A stretch of 64,000 nt of DNA, from contig JAFGAL010000020.1 of the NCBI GenBank assembly GCA_016933695.1, forward strand, positions 1 through 64,000. Reading direction: 5' to 3'. Shown here one piece after another: positions 17,453-30,192 of the stretch. The translations under genes and the position numbers were made by a program. Below the pieces are notes generated by a model that was given only the letters and a program-made list of their open reading frames with translations, made no database searches and was not told the DNA's origin. This DNA is from Candidatus Zixiibacteriota bacterium. GTDB lineage: Bacteria; Zixibacteria; MSB-5A5; GN15; PGXB01. Numbering within the stretch: position 1 is the first letter of the stretch; each line of letters begins with the position of its first letter.

Positions 17453-19172
17453 ATGGATTGAGTCGTTCGATAAACGGGGCCTGACGCAAAGAATCGTCAT
17501 TGTGGTCGAAATAGTATTGTTTCAGAAAGTCATAATCTTCACGGAGACGATGTATTGGAATGCGGTTGATCTGCGGGATATACCAGTCCAGAAATTCCGG
17601 TAAGACTACGAACCGAACTTCGGAATATTGCCGGAGCGGATCCATCACCCGGTTTTGATAGGTGACAATATGCGCCGGCGCGCCGTCAAAGGAGATGACC
17701 TCCAGCTGATCGGGGCTGGGATTTCTCGCGATTGTCCCGCCGATAATAAAATTGACCTTTCGTTCGATCATGTCCTCGTACTGCACCCGTTTTTCATGGC
17801 CGGGGCGGCCGCGTTTTTCGACGGGGCGATGGGCGATGACGGTATCGGTCAGACCGGTGTTGCATTCCAGCGCCCAGGGCAGTCCGGCATAGTACGCCAG
17901 CATGGCCTTGGTCCCCGAGAAGGCCACGCGCACGTCGCGTCCATCGAGATATGTTTTCAGTTTCGCGGCTTCGTCCCTGGCCTGTTCCAGTTTTCTCTCG
18001 GGATATGCCGTGCGTTCATCGGCGACGCCGTGAATCATTACCATCTCGCCAAACTGATTCCATCGCAGAAGAACGGAGACGACGATCAACAAGGCCGCGG
18101 CGATCCGCACTGTTGGTTTGAGATTGATCGCCGCGAGAGCACATTCCAGACAGAAGAACACAATCGGCGTGACCGGGATGAGAAAGCGCGCGAACATGAA
18201 ATCTCCCCCCACGCGGACCACATAGAACACGAACGGAATCGCCCACAGAAGCCCCAGAAGCAGGCCGCGAAGCGGCAGGATCGCAGCGAAGTGGTCGGTG
18301 TTTTTATATCGGACGAACATGATCACCGCGATGAGTGCCAGCGGGATCACCAGAAAGAGGGCATAATAGGTTTTCAGATACATCCAGAGATATACCAGCC
18401 CCTGCGAATAATATGGCAGGTAAGCCGATTTGGCGTAGTACGAATTGGGAAAGGGAAATCCATAGTACGAATATCGCCAGAGCCAGTAGGGGAGATACAG
18501 CACCACCGCCGGCAGAAGATACCACAGGAGGTTTTTCAGCCGGGGGGAATCGGTAACAAACAGATACGGGATGGTTATGACGAAAAGCACCGCCGTGTCG
18601 GGACGCGACATCACCGCCAGCGTGAGAATCAACCCGGCCCAGAACCGACTTCGCGCGGTCGTGCCGACAAGGATAATCGCGAATCCGGCGGCCACCAGCG
18701 CCATGGCCCAGGCGGTTTCCAGACCCGAGGTGGCGAAAACGTGCATGTCATGATGCACCAGAAGCGCCAGCGCCGTAAGCGGAAAAAACCCCGCGTGATT
18801 GTGATGTTCCTGTCGGGCGAGGATATAAGACAGATAACCGAAAATCGCGACAGCCGCGATGTATGACGCGATACTCACTATCTGCGACAAAATGACCGGA
18901 TCGCGATGCACCACCATGCCCGCGGCCATAAGGATAGTCCAGAGGAAATTGGTGTATACCTCGACTCGTTCGCCGATGTTGTACACCAGTCCGTGGCCGT
19001 TGACCAGATTCAGCGCGCACCGAAACGAGAGAAAGGCATCATCGCAAACCCAGGCAAGTGTGAATACCCGGTAGACGGCATATATCGTCGCCGGAATCAG
19101 AAGCCACTTTGCGATATGTCGCAGGGGACTTTGGGATACTGCCGTGGTATCGTTCATGGGATGAGCTTTCAT
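17451..19172 (-). CDS. GT-C-type polytopic membrane protein (AftB/ZomB-like N-terminus)
   Basis: A 573-residue protein with roughly ten hydrophobic segments in the first two thirds and a soluble C-terminal domain. The first extracytoplasmic loop carries VCDDAFLSFRCALNLVNGHG followed by YNIGERVEVYTNFLWT. This DD...R...L..G.GLVYN.GE.VE.YTNF pattern is shared by GT-C glycosyltransferase-like proteins such as mycobacterial AftB and Caulobacter ZomB, in which an Asp pair in the first loop is catalytic. Transfer of a lipid-linked sugar outside the inner membrane is therefore a reasonable inference; the acceptor is unknown. Its ATG overlaps the stop of the upstream gene in an ATGA junction. Third gene of a coupled three-gene operon. 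Confidence 0.75.
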   Translation of the reverse strand: MKAHPMNDTTAVSQSPLRHIAKWLLIPATIYAVYRVFTLAWVCDDAFLSFRCALNLVNGHGLVYNIGERVEVYTNFLWTILMAAGMVVHRDPVILSQIVSIASYIAAVAIFGYLSYILARQEHHNHAGFFPLTALALLVHHDMHVFATSGLETAWAMALVAAGFAIILVGTTARSRFWAGLILTLAVMSRPDTAVLFVITIPYLFVTDSPRLKNLLWYLLPAVVLYLPYWLWRYSYYGFPFPNSYYAKSAYLPYYSQGLVYLWMYLKTYYALFLVIPLALIAVIMFVRYKNTDHFAAILPLRGLLLGLLWAIPFVFYVVRVGGDFMFARFLIPVTPIVFFCLECALAAINLKPTVRIAAALLIVVSVLLRWNQFGEMVMIHGVADERTAYPERKLEQARDEAAKLKTYLDGRDVRVAFSGTKAMLAYYAGLPWALECNTGLTDTVIAHRPVEKRGRPGHEKRVQYEDMIERKVNFIIGGTIARNPSPDQLEVISFDGAPAHIVTYQNRVMDPLRQYSEVRFVVLPEFLDWYIPQINRIPIHRLREDYDFLKQYYFDHNDDSLRQAPFIERLNP

Positions 19173-21220
19173 CGGTTGGATTCCAGTGTCTTCATGGATT
19201 GCCGGAGTTCGACCAGCCGTTGTTCATAGAACGGTTCGTTTGTGCCGAACTGCTCATACTGCGCGGCGTATCGTTCGGCCTCGCCAAGATCGCCTATTTT
19301 GACGTATGCCCGCGCCAGTGTCAGAAGAGCGGGTGCATAGTTGGGTTGAAGATCGAGAAGCAGTTTTGCGAAATATATGCTTGAGTCCGTTTGTTCTTTC
19401 ACAAGATAAATGCCCGCCAGTTCCTGAAGAATCCGCGGATTTTGGCGGTTGAGTCGGAAGCCGGTACCGAGCGCGTCCAGGGCGCTGTCATAGCGTTGCA
19501 GGCGGCCGTAAATCATCCCGAGATACAGCCAGGAGTCATCGAAATAACTTTGCACCTGTACGGATTTTTTGGCGGACACCAGGGCTTTTTCGAGATCGTT
19601 GTGGATGAAATAGACACAGGCCCACATGTTGTGATAATCCTTGGAAAAACGGTCCGGCATGATCCGGTTGGCCTGTTGCAGGGCCAGATCGCGTCGCCCC
19701 TGCTTAATATGGGAAAAAACGTCACTGTACTGCCAGACATGCGGATAGTACTGCCCGTAGAGTGTGTTGAGCGAATCGGCCTGGAATGTGTCACCGCGAT
19801 CCACGTGGAATTTTTTGACAAGAAGCATGGTGCCGCGCGAGCGCATGCGGTCGGTATCGACAATGTGTTTGGCGTATTCGACGGAGTTTTCGGTATTCAG
19901 ATTAACTGCCAGATAGGGCAGAGGGGCGGATATCAGGAAAAAGACCATTGGCAGAATCAGTCGTTCGGGAAGGCGCGGTCTTTTGTTGTCAAGCGTAAGG
20001 ATCAGCGCCAGGGTCAGACCATAGGCGCACAGCGAGAACAGGTCCCAGTCGCGCGGCATGGCCAATTGCGGGTCGATCGCCAGCAAGAAGACAATTCCGG
20101 CGACCGCATTGAGACCGAGAAAGACGATCAGCCGCGATTTTGCCGATCGGAAGACCCGAAAGCCCGCCAAAATAACCAACAGCGGCAACAGCGGTGATAA
20201 CAATACCAGCTCGTTGAGCATATCCGCGATATGCGGCACACTGATCAGGCTGTATTCGGGCGAGGCGGGTTTGCCGGCAAACAGAGGGAGGAAGATATTC
20301 TCGAAATAGAGATTCGAGGCATACAAGCGGAAAAGCGCGATTGCCCCGGCGATGATGGCAATCGCCGCCAGGAACCACCAGAGATATTTCAAGCGCTGAT
20401 ATGCCGCGCGACCCTTGTCGCCGGAAAACAGCACATAAATGAAGGCCGGGATAAACATGGCGGCCTGGAGATGCACGGCAATACTCAGCAGGAGAAAAAC
20501 CAAAACCGGAAGAAAGCTTTTGCCGTTTCGAACACTGCGAATGCCGAAATACACGAATCCGGCGTATACCGCCCAGAGCAGCGGGTAATTTTCCACGTAA
20601 CCGAAAAACAGCAGGACCACGCCGGAACCGATCGATGAGAAAAACACCAGCAGGCGTATGGTCGGCGAGTCGCTGACGGTTCCCGTAATCAGATAAAAGA
20701 ATACCATTGTCACCATCCCGGCGATAACCGCCACGATCCGAAACGCCAGCAGGGCGTTGGGTTCGCTCGGGGCACCGATGATCGACTGGATTATTTGAAT
20801 GACAGTGATAATAACCGTTTCGGTCCAGAGATAATATGTTCCGGCTGATGACGCCAGGTTGGCCAGAAGCGCATAGCCGTCACCGAGGAAATGTGTCGGG
20901 GCGGAAAAAACCGCGAACAGGATGCCCGCCGCGATAACAGTCACGCCGCGATAGATATACCGACGGGGGTGCTCATACATGATGTCGTTAAAACGGGTGG
21001 TCAGAAAAATCCCGGCGCGGGTACCTGACGGCAGATACAGAAGTGCCAGGGCGCCGATTGTCAGAACGGTATACGCGATGGTCCATCCCAACGGAAGAAA
21101 AAGCAGGTGATTGAATCCCCAGAACCGCCCGTCGGGATACATCAGCGGGATGAACCGCAAAATAAACAGACCGGCAAGCATAATGGCGGCTGACGCACAT
21201 GATTTGGAGGTATCGGTCAT
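19169..21220 (-). CDS. Large membrane protein with C-terminal TPRs, paralogue of its upstream neighbour
   Basis: A 683-residue protein: about 12 hydrophobic segments over residues 10-440, then a soluble tail with tetratricopeptide repeats (SYFDDSWLYLGMIYGRLQRY, YDSALDALGTGFRLNRQNPR and following). Blocks shared with the next gene upstream include WGFNHLLFLP, HFLGDGYALL, LLFFGYVENYPLLW and AMPRDWDLFSL, so the two arose by tandem duplication. The membrane part resembles GT-C/dolichyl-phosphate-sugar transferase-like proteins, but I cannot see a definite catalytic motif. Start and stop overlap the neighbours by four bases (ATGA) on both sides, indicating obligate co-translation of all three genes. 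Confidence 0.7.
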   Translation of the reverse strand: MTDTSKSCASAAIMLAGLFILRFIPLMYPDGRFWGFNHLLFLPLGWTIAYTVLTIGALALLYLPSGTRAGIFLTTRFNDIMYEHPRRYIYRGVTVIAAGILFAVFSAPTHFLGDGYALLANLASSAGTYYLWTETVIITVIQIIQSIIGAPSEPNALLAFRIVAVIAGMVTMVFFYLITGTVSDSPTIRLLVFFSSIGSGVVLLFFGYVENYPLLWAVYAGFVYFGIRSVRNGKSFLPVLVFLLLSIAVHLQAAMFIPAFIYVLFSGDKGRAAYQRLKYLWWFLAAIAIIAGAIALFRLYASNLYFENIFLPLFAGKPASPEYSLISVPHIADMLNELVLLSPLLPLLVILAGFRVFRSAKSRLIVFLGLNAVAGIVFLLAIDPQLAMPRDWDLFSLCAYGLTLALILTLDNKRPRLPERLILPMVFFLISAPLPYLAVNLNTENSVEYAKHIVDTDRMRSRGTMLLVKKFHVDRGDTFQADSLNTLYGQYYPHVWQYSDVFSHIKQGRRDLALQQANRIMPDRFSKDYHNMWACVYFIHNDLEKALVSAKKSVQVQSYFDDSWLYLGMIYGRLQRYDSALDALGTGFRLNRQNPRILQELAGIYLVKEQTDSSIYFAKLLLDLQPNYAPALLTLARAYVKIGDLGEAERYAAQYEQFGTNEPFYEQRLVELRQSMKTLESNR

Positions 21221-23274
21221 TGCGGCAGTTCCTTCAGGAGTGAATCGAACGCGTGCAGGCGGTCTTCATGATACGGATCGGCACTGCAATTGGCACGGTA
21301 TATGTTGACATAATAGTGCATACTGTCGGGTTGCTGACGAATGTAATAATACTCACTTAACAGATACCCGGCATGATAATTGGATGTATCCATGGCATAG
21401 CATTTAAAGGCATATACGCCCATTGAATCATACTCCTTGCAATTGAAATACACCGATGACATTGCCTGTATCAAATCGATATCGTCGGCCTTCAGCGTAT
21501 AGGCGCGCCGGAGACTCACCAGGGCGCTGTCATAGATGTTTTTTTGAAGAAACGCCAGGGCGCGTGTTTTGTGCAGATCGTAAATATAGGGTTTCAGCTG
21601 TAAGGCGCGGTCAATGGATTTTATGGCGCTGTCCGCTCTGCCCTCTTTGATAGCCAGATAGCCGATCAGTTTATGATAATTGACATTGTACTCATCCGGT
21701 TCAATCATGGACAACAGCAATTTGGCACCCTGGAGGTCGCTGCCTTTGGCGGCCCGGAAAGCCCGGTCGATATTGATCTTGTTGGTATAGCGCGTCCGAT
21801 AGAGTTGGGTCAGTCGGTCAAAATCGGCATGATCTTCGATCTGCTCGTAATAATCATGCAAAACCACGAGGGTTGACATGGAGCGGGGAACGTCGGTGTT
21901 CATGATGTATTCGGCGTACTGAATCGAGGATTGTGTCCCAAGGTTGGTGATCAGAAAAGGAATCGGCGCTGTCACCAGGAAAATAACAAACGGGCCGACA
22001 AAGCGTCCGATGCGGTCCAGTTGGTGTTCAGAAATCAATGTCAGGCAGGTTAGTGTCAATGTAAATCCCGACATCGCGAACAGGTCCCAGTCGCGGGGCA
22101 TGGCCAGCTTGGGGTCGACAACCAACAGAAACAGCAGATATCCGGCGGCGGCTATCGCAAGGAAGACGGCCTGGTTGTTTTTTGCATACTGCCGAAGACT
22201 GAACAACGCCATCAGACCGAACGGCAGGATCAACGGTGAAATGAGCACCAGTTCATTACAGATATCGAGAAAATGCACGGCGCTGATTATGGCGTAGCCC
22301 GGGTCGATCGGTTTGCCGGTAATCAGCGGCAGAAAGGCATCTTTGACGAACAAGTCAGTATAATACTTGTAGAGAATCAGTGTCAGGACCACCAATGCGA
22401 CAGTGATCACCCCTGACCAGATCAGCCGCGCATGCTTTCGATAGATGGCAAGGCCCCGTTCGCGACTGAGAATCATATAGAAATACGATGGCAGAAGAAC
22501 CGTACTCTGGACATGGATAAGCATGCCGGCCAGTAAAAACGGCAGGGGCCACGCCGGTCCGTGTCCGGTTTTTATAAATCGCAGACCGAAATACAGGTAT
22601 CCCAATGTTGTCGGCCAGAGCAGGGGATACGTTTCCACATAGCCGAAAAACAGCAACAGCGCGCCGGAACCGACCGCAGAGGTGAAGATCAACACCCGTT
22701 TGATTGGATGTTCCGTGACAACACCGGCCAGAAGAAAAAACAGCCAAACACTGATTGCTCCGGATGTGACGGATACGATTTGAAACGCAGTCAGGGCGTT
22801 TTCCTTACTAACGCCGCCGAGAATCGATTGCAGGCCCAGGATGACATAACTGGCGCCCATCTCACTCGGTTTGATAATCGATCGCATTTCGGAACCGAGA
22901 GTCTTGAGTAAATCATAGCCGTCTCCCAGAAAGTGCATCGGGGAGGCGAATACGATAATAAGCAGAGTCAGGATAACGGTGACCGCCGCGCGCAGGATTA
23001 GTCTGCGGGTTTTTTCGTAAAACAGTGTATTGAATCTGTCCGCCAATGTCACACCGATTGTCTTTCCCCATTTACCGAATGACATCGCGACGGCAGCTAT
23101 CCAGACCAGAGTAAAAAGCATAACCCAAATGTCGGGAAGAAACAGCAGATGATTCATTCCCCATAATCTGATTTCCGGCATGAGAAGGGGAATCAGTCGT
23201 AACAGCACGGTCAGTGCGAAAAACAGGATGAGAAGCGGGGTGAGATCGAATGTTTTACCGGCGGATTTACGCAT
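21217..23274 (-). CDS. Large membrane protein with C-terminal TPRs, first gene of the operon
   Basis: A 685-residue protein with the same plan as the following gene: a short cytoplasmic start, about 12 membrane segments, then TPR-type helices (NYHKLIGYLAIKEGRADSAI, KSIDRALQLKPYIYDLHKTRA and others). Shared blocks are WGMNHLLFLP, MHFLGDGYDLL, LLFFGYVETYPLLW and AMPRDWDLFAM. The conserved acidic loop HFLGDGYDLL might hold the catalytic Asp if these are GT-C enzymes; this is inference. A predicted promoter lies 32-60 bp upstream. The duplication plus a third GT-C-like gene suggests a dedicated envelope glycan or protein-glycosylation step. Confidence 0.7.
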   Translation of the reverse strand: MRKSAGKTFDLTPLLILFFALTVLLRLIPLLMPEIRLWGMNHLLFLPDIWVMLFTLVWIAAVAMSFGKWGKTIGVTLADRFNTLFYEKTRRLILRAAVTVILTLLIIVFASPMHFLGDGYDLLKTLGSEMRSIIKPSEMGASYVILGLQSILGGVSKENALTAFQIVSVTSGAISVWLFFLLAGVVTEHPIKRVLIFTSAVGSGALLLFFGYVETYPLLWPTTLGYLYFGLRFIKTGHGPAWPLPFLLAGMLIHVQSTVLLPSYFYMILSRERGLAIYRKHARLIWSGVITVALVVLTLILYKYYTDLFVKDAFLPLITGKPIDPGYAIISAVHFLDICNELVLISPLILPFGLMALFSLRQYAKNNQAVFLAIAAAGYLLFLLVVDPKLAMPRDWDLFAMSGFTLTLTCLTLISEHQLDRIGRFVGPFVIFLVTAPIPFLITNLGTQSSIQYAEYIMNTDVPRSMSTLVVLHDYYEQIEDHADFDRLTQLYRTRYTNKINIDRAFRAAKGSDLQGAKLLLSMIEPDEYNVNYHKLIGYLAIKEGRADSAIKSIDRALQLKPYIYDLHKTRALAFLQKNIYDSALVSLRRAYTLKADDIDLIQAMSSVYFNCKEYDSMGVYAFKCYAMDTSNYHAGYLLSEYYYIRQQPDSMHYYVNIYRANCSADPYHEDRLHAFDSLLKELPQ

Positions 23275-25439: not shown

Positions 25440-26648
25440 ATGCCGAATGCAAACACCCATAATGAAACACCGCTGAAAATCCTGTTTGTCACGCACAACT
25501 ATATCCGTTTCGGCGGGGATTTCGCCGGGGTCTTTTTACACCTGCTCGCCCGCAAACTCGGTGAGCAGGGGATCGAGGTGGTGGTGGTGGCGCCGCATGA
25601 CGCGTCGATTCCGGAGACCGAAATAATCGACGGGGTCAAAATCCACCGGTTCCGCTATGCGTCCGACGAGAACGAGACGTTCGCGTATCGCGGGGATATG
25701 CACCGGCAGTTATTTCGTAATCCCTTCAGGATTTTCCGATTGTTGCGTTTTATCCGGAAAGCCACCAGGCTGGCATCGAAGCTGATCGAAGCGGAAAACA
25801 TTTCCATCGTATCGACGCACTGGGTGATCCCCAACGGCATGATTGCGAAACGACTGAAACGGAAATTCGGCGATCGAATCAAACTGGTGTTCAGTTCGCA
25901 TGGCACCGATGTTCGTCTGTTGACCGGGGTTCCGCTGGTGCTGGCCTATTTTAAATCGATTATTCGCCGGGCGGAAGCGTGGACGGTCGTTTCGCGCTTT
26001 CTCCGGGATATCGTTGCGGCCAAGGCACCTTCGCTTGGCGAGAGAATCCGGATTCTGCCGCTTCCCAACGACGAAGCGGTGTTTTATCCCGACGACAGTA
26101 TCGCCAAAGATCCCAACCTGATCGTGGCGACGTCGCGGCTGACAGTGCAAAAGCGTCTGGAGTGTTTAATCGAAGCGGTTAAGCTGGTTTCGAAGGCCAT
26201 ACCGATGATCCGCCTTGAGATTTACGGAACCGGTCCGGAGAAATTCAAGCTGGAACGACTGATCGATGAGAAGGGATTGGCTGGACGGGTGGTGATCAAA
26301 AAGCCGGTGGCGCAGGAAGCTCTGCGCGAGGTGTACAACCGCGCCTCGGTGATGGTACTCAATTCCATCGACGAGGGATTCGGGCTGGGGCTGACCGAGG
26401 CGATGCTGTGTCATACTGCGGTAATCGGCACCGATTCGGGGGGGATTCGGGATATTATCGATCATGACCGGACCGGACTGCTGGTCCCGGTCGATAATGC
26501 CGAGGCGCTGGCGGCGGCAATAGAAAAGCTTCTCACCGATCACACCCTGCGCAATCGTCTTGAAGAGGCGGGGTACCAGAAGGCATTGACGGCGTTTTCA
26601 TCGAAAGCGACGGCTGAAACGTTCGCGAAGTTATTCAGAGAAATATAG
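25440..26648 (+). CDS. Glycosyltransferase family 4
   Basis: A 402-residue cytoplasmic GT-B enzyme. The N-terminal acceptor domain opens with KILFVTHNYIRFGGDFAGVFLHLLARKLGEQG, and SSHGTDVRL follows. The donor-binding C-terminal domain has the family signature ATSRLTVQKRLECLIEAV, YGTGPEKFKLERL, and the E-x7-E motif EGFGLGLTEAMLCHTAVIGT with DIIDHDRTGLLVP. It transfers a nucleotide-sugar residue to a lipid or glycan acceptor with retention, by family precedent; donor and acceptor are unknown. No strong ribosome site is visible before ATG 25440. It lies apart from the main polysaccharide locus and may act with the membrane GT-C proteins just upstream of it in the window. Confidence 0.88.
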   Translation: MPNANTHNETPLKILFVTHNYIRFGGDFAGVFLHLLARKLGEQGIEVVVVAPHDASIPETEIIDGVKIHRFRYASDENETFAYRGDMHRQLFRNPFRIFRLLRFIRKATRLASKLIEAENISIVSTHWVIPNGMIAKRLKRKFGDRIKLVFSSHGTDVRLLTGVPLVLAYFKSIIRRAEAWTVVSRFLRDIVAAKAPSLGERIRILPLPNDEAVFYPDDSIAKDPNLIVATSRLTVQKRLECLIEAVKLVSKAIPMIRLEIYGTGPEKFKLERLIDEKGLAGRVVIKKPVAQEALREVYNRASVMVLNSIDEGFGLGLTEAMLCHTAVIGTDSGGIRDIIDHDRTGLLVPVDNAEALAAAIEKLLTDHTLRNRLEEAGYQKALTAFSSKATAETFAKLFREI

Positions 26649-26659
26649 AAGGCGAGAGA

Positions 26660-28558
26660 TTATTCGGACAGGCGCGCCGTGATTTTCTCAAGCACGTCGG
26701 CGGTGCGATCCGGGTATTCCCGCAGGATTTGCCCGGTGATGTATCGCCGGAACTTGTCGGGTGATCCGTTGGTCTTTGCCGTCGCGAAACCGTTTTCGGC
26801 CTTTTTCCAGAGCGTATCGAAATCGGATGTGCCATAGTGATCGTCGGGAGTGCCGCCGGATTGGCTCAATGCGATCAATGCGGCTTTAATATGCGCGTAC
26901 GGCCAGTCCTCGACCAACGCCCGATGTAAGAGCGTATATAATTTCTTGGCATCGGCGTATTCCAGATGGACGTTTTTCCGTCGCAGACCGACCATGACAT
27001 CGGCGCAGTAATGCGCCGCCTTTTTGGGATTGACGGCGCGATCGGCGGCCAGTCGTTCGAACAGGTCGAGAAATTTCGACAGTGAGAGCGCCGCGACCTG
27101 TTCCTCGTGAAGTCCCAGTTTGCGCCAGCGTTCCTGCTTGACCCAGAGTTGTTCCTGGATGCTGTCGCGATTTTTGGTGACACGCTCTTCGGTGATCTTC
27201 ACGGGAGGATGGTCGGTATCGGGATACATGCGGTCGGGACCGGGAAGAATGCGTTCGAAATCGGTGGAACCGTCCTTGATATCCTGACGGGTTTCGTTGA
27301 TGACGCCGTCGGCAAGTTCGCCGATGCGGATTTTTATTTCATTGATCGCGGTCGCGACATCGGCCGACGGCCCGCAAACCAGGATGATATCATCGTTGGT
27401 TTCGCACGGCAGGGACCTGGTAATCGTATCCCAAAGGGAATCGGGGATGTCGTATCGCTCTTTTTGTGAGAGGAAAAACAGGTTCGGTTTGGTGTCAATA
27501 CAGGCGATCACACGCACCCGGCCGGACAGTTCGAATCCGAAATCCCGTCCCGGTTGCAATGGCGTGTTGATCATGTCGCGCAGATTCGGCGCATAGAGGG
27601 CGACCACTTTCAGCGGCTGGTCGCTTTCCAGGCGACATCCGATGGTGTTGGCGGTTCCGCTGAACAGGGAGGTGATGTTTTCCTCTTTGTAAGAAACAGC
27701 TTCAGGCGAGGTGAACCGCCCGGTAAACATCTTTTTTAAGTCCAGCAGACCGATCTGCCGAACCGCTTCGGTGGCGGTGAGTCTTTTGATATTGCCGACC
27801 TTATAGACGCCCTTGATCTCGACCCGATCGCCGCCGGTGACAGAGACGTTGACATCCTGACGGACGGTGCCGATTCCGCGGCGGACGAATCCGGCGGCTT
27901 TCATCGAATTGCCAAGCAAGCGGCAGACCTCGGCGGCCTCGTCGGGATTTTTCATATCGGCATCGGTGATCACTTCGATCAGTGGAATCGAGAGCCGGTC
28001 GGTGGCGAAGATGATCTGGTGCCCGATATCGGAAACCTCGCGGCAGGAATCCTCTTCGAGATTCAACTGCGAGATCCGAATTTTCCGTCCCTTGTATGGG
28101 ACCCATCCGTCGATACCAATAATCATCGTTCGCTGGAAACCGGTGGGGATCGAGCCGTCGAGATACTGCTTGCGGACGACGTGCAGTTCATCGACGATCC
28201 GGCAGTTGAAATGCAGGGCGACCCGCATGGCCAGGTCGACGGCGTCCTGGTTGACCAGGAACGGGGGTGTATCGTCCATCTCATAGGTGCAGGTGCGATC
28301 GCGATAGAGCCGGTAAATGACCTCTTTTTTGGTCTTGAACTCCATCAGCGCGGTGCCGTCGTATTCGCCCAGCTCCGAGAGGGTCGGACGCATGTGCCGC
28401 AGGATTTCGGCGTCATGGCGACGATTGGTCAGCCCCACCGGACAATGACAAAACAGTTTGCGTTCGGTGTCGATTTGCTGGTGAATCTCCAGGCCGCATT
28501 TGAAGCCCCGGGATTCAAAGAACGATTTGTCGTCGATGTCGATTTCAAGCTCTTTCAT
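26660..28558 (-). CDS. gatE: Glu-tRNA(Gln) amidotransferase subunit E (archaeal-type)
   Basis: A 632-residue protein that matches GatE rather than bacterial GatB. The family start is GLEIHQQIDTERKLFCHCP (GatB proteins have GLEIHVQL), followed by the kinase-like cradle with YLDGSIPTGFQRTMIIG, ISQLNLEEDSCRE and GTVRQDVNVSVTGGDRVEIKG. The GAD-like insertion characteristic of GatE is present (SGRVRVIACIDTKPNLFFLS to residue about 430), then LPGPDRMYPDTDHPPV and the helical and YqeY-like tail. GatE phosphorylates Glu-tRNA(Gln) and, with the asparaginase-like GatD, amidates it to Gln-tRNA(Gln). No gatD, gatA, gatB or gatC is in the window. ATG 28558 is chosen over the track TTG at 28609 by family N-terminus. 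Confidence 0.9.
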   Translation of the reverse strand: MKELEIDIDDKSFFESRGFKCGLEIHQQIDTERKLFCHCPVGLTNRRHDAEILRHMRPTLSELGEYDGTALMEFKTKKEVIYRLYRDRTCTYEMDDTPPFLVNQDAVDLAMRVALHFNCRIVDELHVVRKQYLDGSIPTGFQRTMIIGIDGWVPYKGRKIRISQLNLEEDSCREVSDIGHQIIFATDRLSIPLIEVITDADMKNPDEAAEVCRLLGNSMKAAGFVRRGIGTVRQDVNVSVTGGDRVEIKGVYKVGNIKRLTATEAVRQIGLLDLKKMFTGRFTSPEAVSYKEENITSLFSGTANTIGCRLESDQPLKVVALYAPNLRDMINTPLQPGRDFGFELSGRVRVIACIDTKPNLFFLSQKERYDIPDSLWDTITRSLPCETNDDIILVCGPSADVATAINEIKIRIGELADGVINETRQDIKDGSTDFERILPGPDRMYPDTDHPPVKITEERVTKNRDSIQEQLWVKQERWRKLGLHEEQVAALSLSKFLDLFERLAADRAVNPKKAAHYCADVMVGLRRKNVHLEYADAKKLYTLLHRALVEDWPYAHIKAALIALSQSGGTPDDHYGTSDFDTLWKKAENGFATAKTNGSPDKFRRYITGQILREYPDRTADVLEKITARLSE

Positions 28559-28734
28559 AACAGAGGGGAATATATACGGCAACGCGAAAAAAGAAAGCGA
28601 TTTTTTCAAGAAATCGGGACCGACCGGGGGATCAGCGAGAGCGGGATGTGCGGTCGAAAAAACGGCCGACAGGTATATAATTCATTGACAAGATGTCCGT
28701 CTCTCTCGTATTTTTATGTGTCGGGAGGATTCAC

Positions 28735-29433
28735 ATGCGTTCAATCGAAGAGCTGATCAATCGCCAGCTTAATCGCTGGGAAATGGAACGTCGTCACCGC
28801 GAAGAGGAAATCCAAAATGGTATTGCGCCGGAAATCAAGCCCATTGTCACGGTGAGTCGACAACGGGGAAGTCGGGGCGCATATATCGCCGAACGCCTCG
28901 CCGAGAAACTGGGATACCAATTGCTGTATCGCGAGATCATCGACGAAATCTGCAAGTCGTCGGGATACCGTCGGCGGGTGATCGAGTCGCTTGACAACAA
29001 GGTGCGGTCACGGATGGAACTCTGGTTCGAGGGGTTATTCAAGGGCATGTATATCGACTCCTCGGATTATTTCAAGCAGTTGTATCGGGTGATCATGTCG
29101 GTGTCGGCGCATGGCGGGGTGGTGGTGGTCGGTCGCGCCGCCAATTTCATGCTGTCGCGCGATCAGGGATTTCACCTGCGCGTGGTGGCGGCCCGTCCGG
29201 TGCGAATCGAAAATCTGGTGCGCTATCAGCAGTTGACCCACGAGCAGGCGGAGCAGGAAATCCGTCAATTCGACAGGAGCCGGGCGGAATTCGTCGAGAG
29301 TAATTTCCATATGAACATCGACGACCCGGGCGCCTATGACCTGATTCTCAACACGACGTATGTCGACGTCGACGAAGCGGTGCAAATCGCCGAGCTGGGA
29401 ATGCAGTCGAAGCGGAAGGCGCTGAGTGCCTGA
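28735..29433 (+). CDS. Cytidylate kinase-like family protein
   Basis: A 232-residue P-loop protein of the cytidylate kinase-like group (Cytidylate_kin2 type). The degenerate Walker A is VSRQRGSRGAYIAERLAEKL, in place of the G-x4-GK-S/T of true CMP kinases, followed by GYQLLYREIIDEI. Further family blocks are HGGVVVVGRAANFML, LRVVAARPVRIENL and the lid-type RSRAEFVESNFHMNID with YDLILNTTYVDVDEAV. The reaction is not established for this subgroup; loss of the canonical Lys/Ser suggests altered nucleotide handling. The track ORF begins 14 codons earlier, but a strong GGGAGG sits seven bases before ATG 28735. Transcribed divergently from gatE. Confidence 0.82.
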   Translation: MRSIEELINRQLNRWEMERRHREEEIQNGIAPEIKPIVTVSRQRGSRGAYIAERLAEKLGYQLLYREIIDEICKSSGYRRRVIESLDNKVRSRMELWFEGLFKGMYIDSSDYFKQLYRVIMSVSAHGGVVVVGRAANFMLSRDQGFHLRVVAARPVRIENLVRYQQLTHEQAEQEIRQFDRSRAEFVESNFHMNIDDPGAYDLILNTTYVDVDEAVQIAELGMQSKRKALSA

Positions 29434-29652: not shown

Positions 29653-30192
29653 ATGCCAGTTAAGAAGACGGCCAAGAAGACGACGAAGAAGGCGGCACCG
29701 AAGAAACCCGCCGCCAAGAAACCTGCGGCCAAGAAGACCACCGCGACCAAGAAGAAAGCGGCCCCGAAGAAGAAAGCCGCCCCGAAGAAGAAAGCGGCCC
29801 CGAAGAAGAAAGCCGCCCCGAAGAAGAAAGCGGCTCCGAAGAAGAAAGCCGCCCCGAAGAAGAAGGCGGCTCCGAAGAAGAAAGCCGCCCCGAAAAAGAA
29901 AGTCGCGGCGAAGAAGCCGGCCAAGAAGAAAACGGCACGCAAAGCCAGCCCGGCGTTGATGAAGCCGGTCAATCCCGACAGCACTCTCGGTGCGATCGTG
30001 GGCGACAAGGCAATGCCGCGTGCGCAGATTACCAAAAAGCTCTGGGACTATATCAAGAAGAACAATCTTCAGGACCAGACCAACCGTCGCATGATCAACG
30101 CCGATGACAAACTGAAGGCGGTGTTCGGCGGCAAGGCCAAGGTCAATATGTTTGAGATGACCAAGCTGGTCTCCAAGCATATCAAGTCATAG
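29653..30192 (+). CDS. Histone H1-like Lys/Ala/Pro tail fused to a SWIB domain
   Basis: A 179-residue basic protein. Residues 1-100 are almost only Lys, Ala, Pro and Thr, including eight uninterrupted AAPKKK hexapeptides (residues about 36-83), as in bacterial histone-H1-like nucleoid proteins. Residues about 103-179 are a complete SWIB/MDM2-type domain: STLGAIVGDKAMPRAQITKK, LWDYIKKNNLQDQTNRRMIN, ADDKLKAVFGG and NMFEMTKLVSKHI. The tail should bind DNA non-specifically; SWIB domains mediate protein contacts in chromatin factors and in chlamydial topoisomerase. A perfect AAGGAGG before ATG 29653 suggests high expression. The 219-bp upstream gap is AT-rich and holds no other gene; no convincing -35/-10 pair was found. 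Role in nucleoid packing is inference. Confidence 0.9.
   Translation: MPVKKTAKKTTKKAAPKKPAAKKPAAKKTTATKKKAAPKKKAAPKKKAAPKKKAAPKKKAAPKKKAAPKKKAAPKKKAAPKKKVAAKKPAKKKTARKASPALMKPVNPDSTLGAIVGDKAMPRAQITKKLWDYIKKNNLQDQTNRRMINADDKLKAVFGGKAKVNMFEMTKLVSKHIKS
29758..29901 (+). repeat. Eight tandem 18-bp units encoding AAPKKK
   Basis: Eight in-frame 18-bp units. The first codon alternates GCG, GCC, GCG, GCC..., and units 5 and 7 share GCT as second codon, so the array is really four 36-bp dimers. This indicates growth by 36-bp duplication and likely length variation between strains. Confidence 0.9.

Follow-up and report, generated by a model that had tools for sequence, protein, structure and literature searches.

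The window, a stretch of 64,000 nucleotides from a Candidatus Zixiibacteriota genome, contains on its minus strand an uninterrupted open reading frame (26660-28609) that encodes, from an internal ATG, a full-length GatE with the motifs GLEIHQQ, RKQYLDGSIPTGFQRT, LEED, and LPGPDRMYPDTD (Table 1). The gene lies between a glycosyltransferase gene and a cytidylate-kinase-like gene, and one or both of these neighbours are kept at gatE in nine further genera of the same family (both in five). This conservation of the flanking genes indicates that the locus is native bacterial DNA (the preliminary description had noted ordinary bacterial genes around it), and the possibility that the contig is an archaeal chimera or contamination is rejected by the same synteny. 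The host assembly (33 contigs, 2.75 Mb in total) has a completeness of 82%, and the contig that carries gatE is 164 kb long. Two further features of the window are a pair of similar large membrane proteins encoded in tandem and a SWIB/MDM2-domain protein, the N-terminal repeats of which resemble a DNA-binding histone-like tail.

Table 1. Features in and around gatE (positions are those of the window)
Feature	Position	Strand	Remarks
Two tandem large membrane proteins	19169..23274	-	683 and 685 aa; TPR repeats C-terminal
Glycosyltransferase group 1 gene	25440..26648	+	Convergent neighbour; conserved in family
gatE	26660..28558	-	632 aa from the ATG at 28558; no stop up to a TTG at 28609
GatE, C-terminal helical and tail part	26663..27160	-	Strongly diverged; reads tRNA in archaeal GatE
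GatE, LPGPDRMYPDTD segment	27161..27250	-	C-terminal side of insertion
GatE, AspRS-like (GAD) insertion region	27251..27637	-	Typical of GatE; from alignment to 1zq1_C and 2d6f_C; boundaries approximate
GatE, catalytic part (GLEIHQQ ... GDRVEIKGV)	27638..28495	-	PF02934 GatB_N; boundaries approximate
Cytidylate-kinase-like gene	28693..29433	+	Divergent neighbour; conserved in family
SWIB/MDM2-domain protein	29653..30189	+	PF02201, 102 bits; about nine N-terminal AAPKKK repeats

The protein is a bona fide GatE and not a GatB. It scores 472.5 bits against the NCBIfam GatE model NF003107 (cut-off 456) and 397 bits against TIGR00134 (gatE_arch; cut-off 319.6), both at the equivalog level, and lies below the cut-offs of all NCBIfam GatB models (the best of these gives 140 bits, with a cut-off of 338). 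The closest solved structures in the PDB by sequence are the GatE subunits of P. abyssi (1zq1_C, 302 bits) and M. thermautotrophicus (2d6f_C, 284 bits), and GatB structures reach 90 bits at most. The predicted structure (mean pLDDT 86.8) likewise retrieved 1zq1_C and 2d6f first in Foldseek, with GatB below. The protein is thus closer to GatE in sequence, tree, and fold, which confirms the original assignment from GLEIHQQ and LPGPDRMYPDTD and disposes of the objection that it might align with GatB. Both GatE structures align through the AspRS-like insertion, which, together with weak Foldseek matches to AspRS, backs the GAD-like insertion that had been proposed; a GAD domain as such was not among the Pfam matches of the protein. 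Identity to the GatE of sister genera is 67%. Mean identity to other bacterial GatEs is 57.6% in the catalytic part and 17.7% in the C-terminal helical and tail part, the helices of which were modelled with good confidence and the extreme end with low confidence.

GatD and the distribution of bacterial GatE

The preliminary description had noted no gatD beside gatE. This is correct locally but not genome-wide, because a strong gatD is present on a different contig, at G000:C25:102920-104122, where it scores 520 bits (cut-off 324), and the suggestion that GatE does another job without GatD falls with it. The encoded protein contains the GatD N-terminal domain, retains the asparaginase-type active-site motifs TGGTIAS, HGTDTM, and VRKMH, and scores 418 bits against P. 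abyssi GatD versus 143 bits against the best plain asparaginase. The two genes adjoin in other families of the order and are apart in the host family, except in one genus. No conserved third gene was found beside gatDE, no gene family occurring in more than 5 of the 60 bacterial loci. The nearest relatives of the two host proteins also differ: GatE (L002) clusters with the GatEs of other families in its phylum, and GatD (L035) shares 72-76% identity with Ignavibacteria-type GatD versus 62% with the GatD of family f16, which suggests that the split genes may have had separate histories.

GatE was detected above the cut-off in 62 of the 111 genomes of the host phylum that are at least 80% complete; several GatE clades coexist in this phylum, and the host family has its own. 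At least 564 GatE loci were confirmed in the genomes of named species when these were scanned with a probe placed halfway between the bacterial and archaeal forms of GatE. Among the best 80 of these, 60 are bacterial and come from Ignavibacteria, Chlorobiota and other Bacteroidota, Kapabacteria, KSB1, Planctomycetota, Caldisericia, Aminicenantes, WOR-3/Stahlbacteria, Cloacimonetes, Krumholzibacteriota, Fermentibacteria, Neomarinimicrobiota, Myxococcota, and Gemmatimonadetes. Most GatE-carrying genomes are metagenome-assembled (MAGs); single-contig carriers among the best 80 are an Ignavibacteria MAG titled as a complete genome (CP054675; L150) and a Phycisphaerales MAG (CP070718). Gene order is gatE-gatD in bacteria (38 adjacent, 2 reversed) and gatD-gatE in archaea (7 adjacent, none reversed). 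A search of a plasmid collection for archaeal GatE gave a single archaeal match, which was partial. One single-contig relative (G003) has a shortened GatE (L012, G003:C1:1118129-1122319; a 517-aa frame aligned only to residue 399), reflecting either decay or an assembly frameshift, and shows no GlnRS match above the cut-off.

In quick trees with modest archaeal sampling, 44 bacterial GatEs fall on one side of a branch (SH-aLRT 98), which supports a single bacterial clade. A lone, recent transfer from archaea is rejected, since the gene sits in this large clade spanning many phyla. In the phylogeny that had been proposed for placing the gene, the origin of the clade can be read in two ways: the GatB-rooted tree nests the bacterial GatEs beside Thermoplasmatota, but a tree that keeps all archaea together has a slightly better likelihood and is not rejected (p-AU 0.61), so that both a transfer and a deep split are compatible with the data.

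The GatE family itself is already known and is named in NCBI models. On the sequence evidence, GatDE is real in the host and in many bacterial phyla, and the term ‘archaea-specific’, used in the preliminary description, is too narrow. In the literature, a 2022 review confines present-day GatDE to archaea and states that GlnRS is absent from all archaea (PMC9499178), and a 2014 survey of these enzymes in 366 bacterial genomes does not mention GatDE (PMC3927822). We found no paper on bacterial GatDE in the openly licensed text of PubMed Central.

Co-occurrence of GatDE with GlnRS

A search for glnS, as proposed at the outset, recovered a full-length GlnRS (753 bits) from the host genome, and the earlier suggestion that an archaeal gene has replaced the bacterial route is therefore not borne out. 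An AsnRS (631 bits) is also present. Of the GatCAB subunits, GatB was searched for, and neither a GatB above the cut-off nor a second PF02934 gene was found in the 82% complete assembly. Among the 42 relatives in the order that are at least 90% complete, 35 have both GatE and GlnRS, one has GlnRS alone, none has GatE alone, and six have neither; all of these six have GatB, which is also present in 15 of the 35 GatE genomes. The association of GatE with GlnRS has a Fisher p of 1.3e-6, but the GluRS tree indicates only two or three independent changes. A sign test would need more, and the association was therefore examined in a second class, that of CP054675. There, GlnRS occurs in 29 of the 30 genomes with GatE versus 35 of the 89 without it (Fisher p 7e-9, a value that ignores kinship). 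CP054675 itself carries GatDE and GlnRS and has no GatB above the cut-off. The finding of GatE with GlnRS in two groups indicates that GatDE accompanies GlnRS rather than replacing it, which is puzzling because a sole route to Gln-tRNA(Gln) would be expected to avoid GlnRS.

The picture is more mixed among the 47 named bacterial GatE genomes, where GlnRS was above the cut-off in 34, matched as a truncated sequence in one, and not detected in 12; GatB was found in 19. Five GatE genomes (G127, G143, G144, G146, and G147), all MAGs of unestablished completeness, have neither GlnRS nor GatB above the cut-off. One of them (G147, locus L176, Neomarinimicrobiota) contains GatDE and two GluRS-like genes and is a candidate for a genome in which GatDE alone supplies Gln-tRNA. 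Contig C54 of a Heimdallarchaeota MAG (G166, locus L156) carries a GlnRS (676 bits, C54:17088-18686) together with a second GatE-like frame (C54:67516) and is likelier to be a bacterial contaminant. In five genomes of family f2 (G015, G018, G024, G029, and G031), AsnRS is of a shorter type (about 430-460 aa) that scores about 490 bits versus about 600 bits in other families, and is possibly of separate origin.

Conservation of GatDE and its probable role

In the GatDE reaction, GatD, an asparaginase-type subunit, frees ammonia, and GatE activates the glutamate attached to tRNA(Gln) and converts it by amidation into glutamine. Mean identities among bacteria are 72.5% for GatD and 49.2% for GatE; among archaea, for which seven gene pairs only were available, they are 50.5% and 48.9%, respectively. 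The catalytic part of GatE averages 62% identity in bacteria and 52% in archaea; for the C-terminal helices and tail the means are 21% and 32%, respectively. At matched catalytic identities of 50-65%, the tail retains 18-21% in bacteria versus 36-37% in archaea. The strong conservation of GatD and of the catalytic core argues that the enzyme is in use, and the asymmetry suggests that the engine is held while the tRNA reader is free to change. In archaea, the GatE tail helps to separate tRNA(Gln) from tRNA(Glu) by the shape of the D-loop (PMC4810234), and GatDE is reported to use the A1-U72 pair and the D-loop of tRNA(Gln) (PMC9499178). The ARAGORN pattern search, which may overlook a second tRNA-Gln if its variable loop or T-arm is atypical, found one tRNA-Gln(UUG) in the host. 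This has the bacterial-type U1-A72 pair and G73, and the same holds for tRNA-Gln in 19 relatives, whether or not they have GatDE. The A1-U72 pair of the archaeal substrate is thus missing from the host tRNA-Gln, although this is a feature of the substrate and not of the GatE family. The diverging tail may either track the tRNA of each lineage or reflect relaxed or redirected selection. The host GluRS has the Arg358 equivalent, but so do GlnRS-less relatives expected to need a non-discriminating GluRS, and this residue is uninformative as a reading of GluRS discrimination.

We slightly favour, by little more than an even chance, the explanation that bacterial GatDE works as in archaea, where it amidates Glu-tRNA(Gln) (PMC9499178), and that it is an accessory enzyme offering a second path to Gln-tRNA(Gln) next to GlnRS, either to clear Glu-tRNA(Gln) or as a back-up. 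The GatD encoded elsewhere in the genome would pair with GatE and supply ammonia; Glu-tRNA(Gln) would arise through imperfect discrimination by GluRS or through scarcity of glutamine; and GatE would activate its glutamate, so that the complex would convert it to Gln-tRNA(Gln) alongside GlnRS. The presence of GlnRS in the same cell makes such an accessory role the most likely one, and equivalog-level scores of both subunits, the presence of AsnRS, and the lack of a GatB above the cut-off in the host agree with it. The U1-A72 pair of tRNA-Gln, a tail far more diverged than in archaea, and the 12 of 47 named carriers without GlnRS speak against it. The broader proposition that GatDE is a companion of GlnRS in many phyla, serving quality control or repurposed, with GatD and the core held and a freely evolving tRNA-reading tail, is tentative, its chance being somewhat below even.

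Repurposing, which ranks next after the accessory route, is rather unlikely. GlnRS would have taken over, and GatD and the GatE core would have been kept as an engine with the tail redirected to another mischarged tRNA or to a non-tRNA carboxylate. The near-restriction of GatE to GlnRS genomes in two groups, the low tail identity at matched catalytic identity, and the bacterial-type tRNA-Gln irrespective of GatDE speak for this explanation, but the family models and the predicted fold are all still those of GatE, tail divergence could equally follow the tRNA(Gln) of each lineage, and no alternative substrate is known. The remaining explanations are less likely than these two. If GlnRS were inactive or specialized, GatDE and GluRS might make all Gln-tRNA(Gln) in the archaeal fashion, as the five MAGs lacking both GlnRS and GatB might do; this is improbable where a full-length GlnRS of about 750 bits is encoded, as in the host and nearly all its GatE relatives, and replacement would have given a negative association of GatE with GlnRS, not the positive one found. 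About as improbable is amidation of Asp-tRNA(Asn) for tRNA-dependent asparagine synthesis, a task that GatCAB performs in bacteria with both GlnRS and AsnRS (PMC4206432) and for which no GatB was detected in the host; AsnRS is present, however, GatB co-occurs with GatE in the 15 genomes of the order noted above, and GatDE is a glutamine enzyme in archaea (PMC9499178). A decaying vestige or archaeal contamination, which the preponderance of MAGs and the shortened GatE of G003 might suggest, is largely refuted by family synteny, intact gatE frames in dozens of genomes, the complete chromosome CP054675, and the conservation of GatD and the GatE core.

The bacterial GatE genomes contradict the restriction of GatDE to archaea and make directly testable the statement of a 2014 paper that bacteria with both Gln-tRNA(Gln) routes are not known (PMC4206432); the companion proposition, if true, would overturn both views. 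These genomes are relevant, too, to the proposal that GatDE and GlnRS are kept apart by the co-evolution of GatDE with tRNA(Gln), and they form a natural set for studying how tRNA reading by an amidotransferase changes. Most of the genomes with bacterial GatDE already possess the usual enzyme for this task, so that the role of GatDE in bacteria becomes a testable question.

Compared with the archaeal systems of P. abyssi (1ZQ1) and M. thermautotrophicus (2D6F), the host GatDE has both subunits at the equivalog level, the GatD N-terminal domain and asparaginase-type motifs, and the catalytic core, AspRS-like insertion, and C-terminal helical part of GatE. It differs in that bacterial GatE forms a separate clade, in the gatE-gatD or split arrangement of the genes, in coexistence with GlnRS and a U1-A72 tRNA-Gln of bacterial type, and in a much more diverged tail combined with a far more conserved GatD. 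With bacterial GatCAB it shares the PF02934 GatB/GatE catalytic domain and probably the chemistry, but GatB lacks the insertion, the host GatE falls below every GatB equivalog cut-off, and its partner is GatD. The GatCAB of Bdellovibrio, Deinococcus, and Thermus offers a parallel in that an amidotransferase is kept despite both direct synthetases, GlnRS and AsnRS (PMC4206432); that enzyme makes asparagine on tRNA(Asn), whereas the host has GatDE and no detected GatB.
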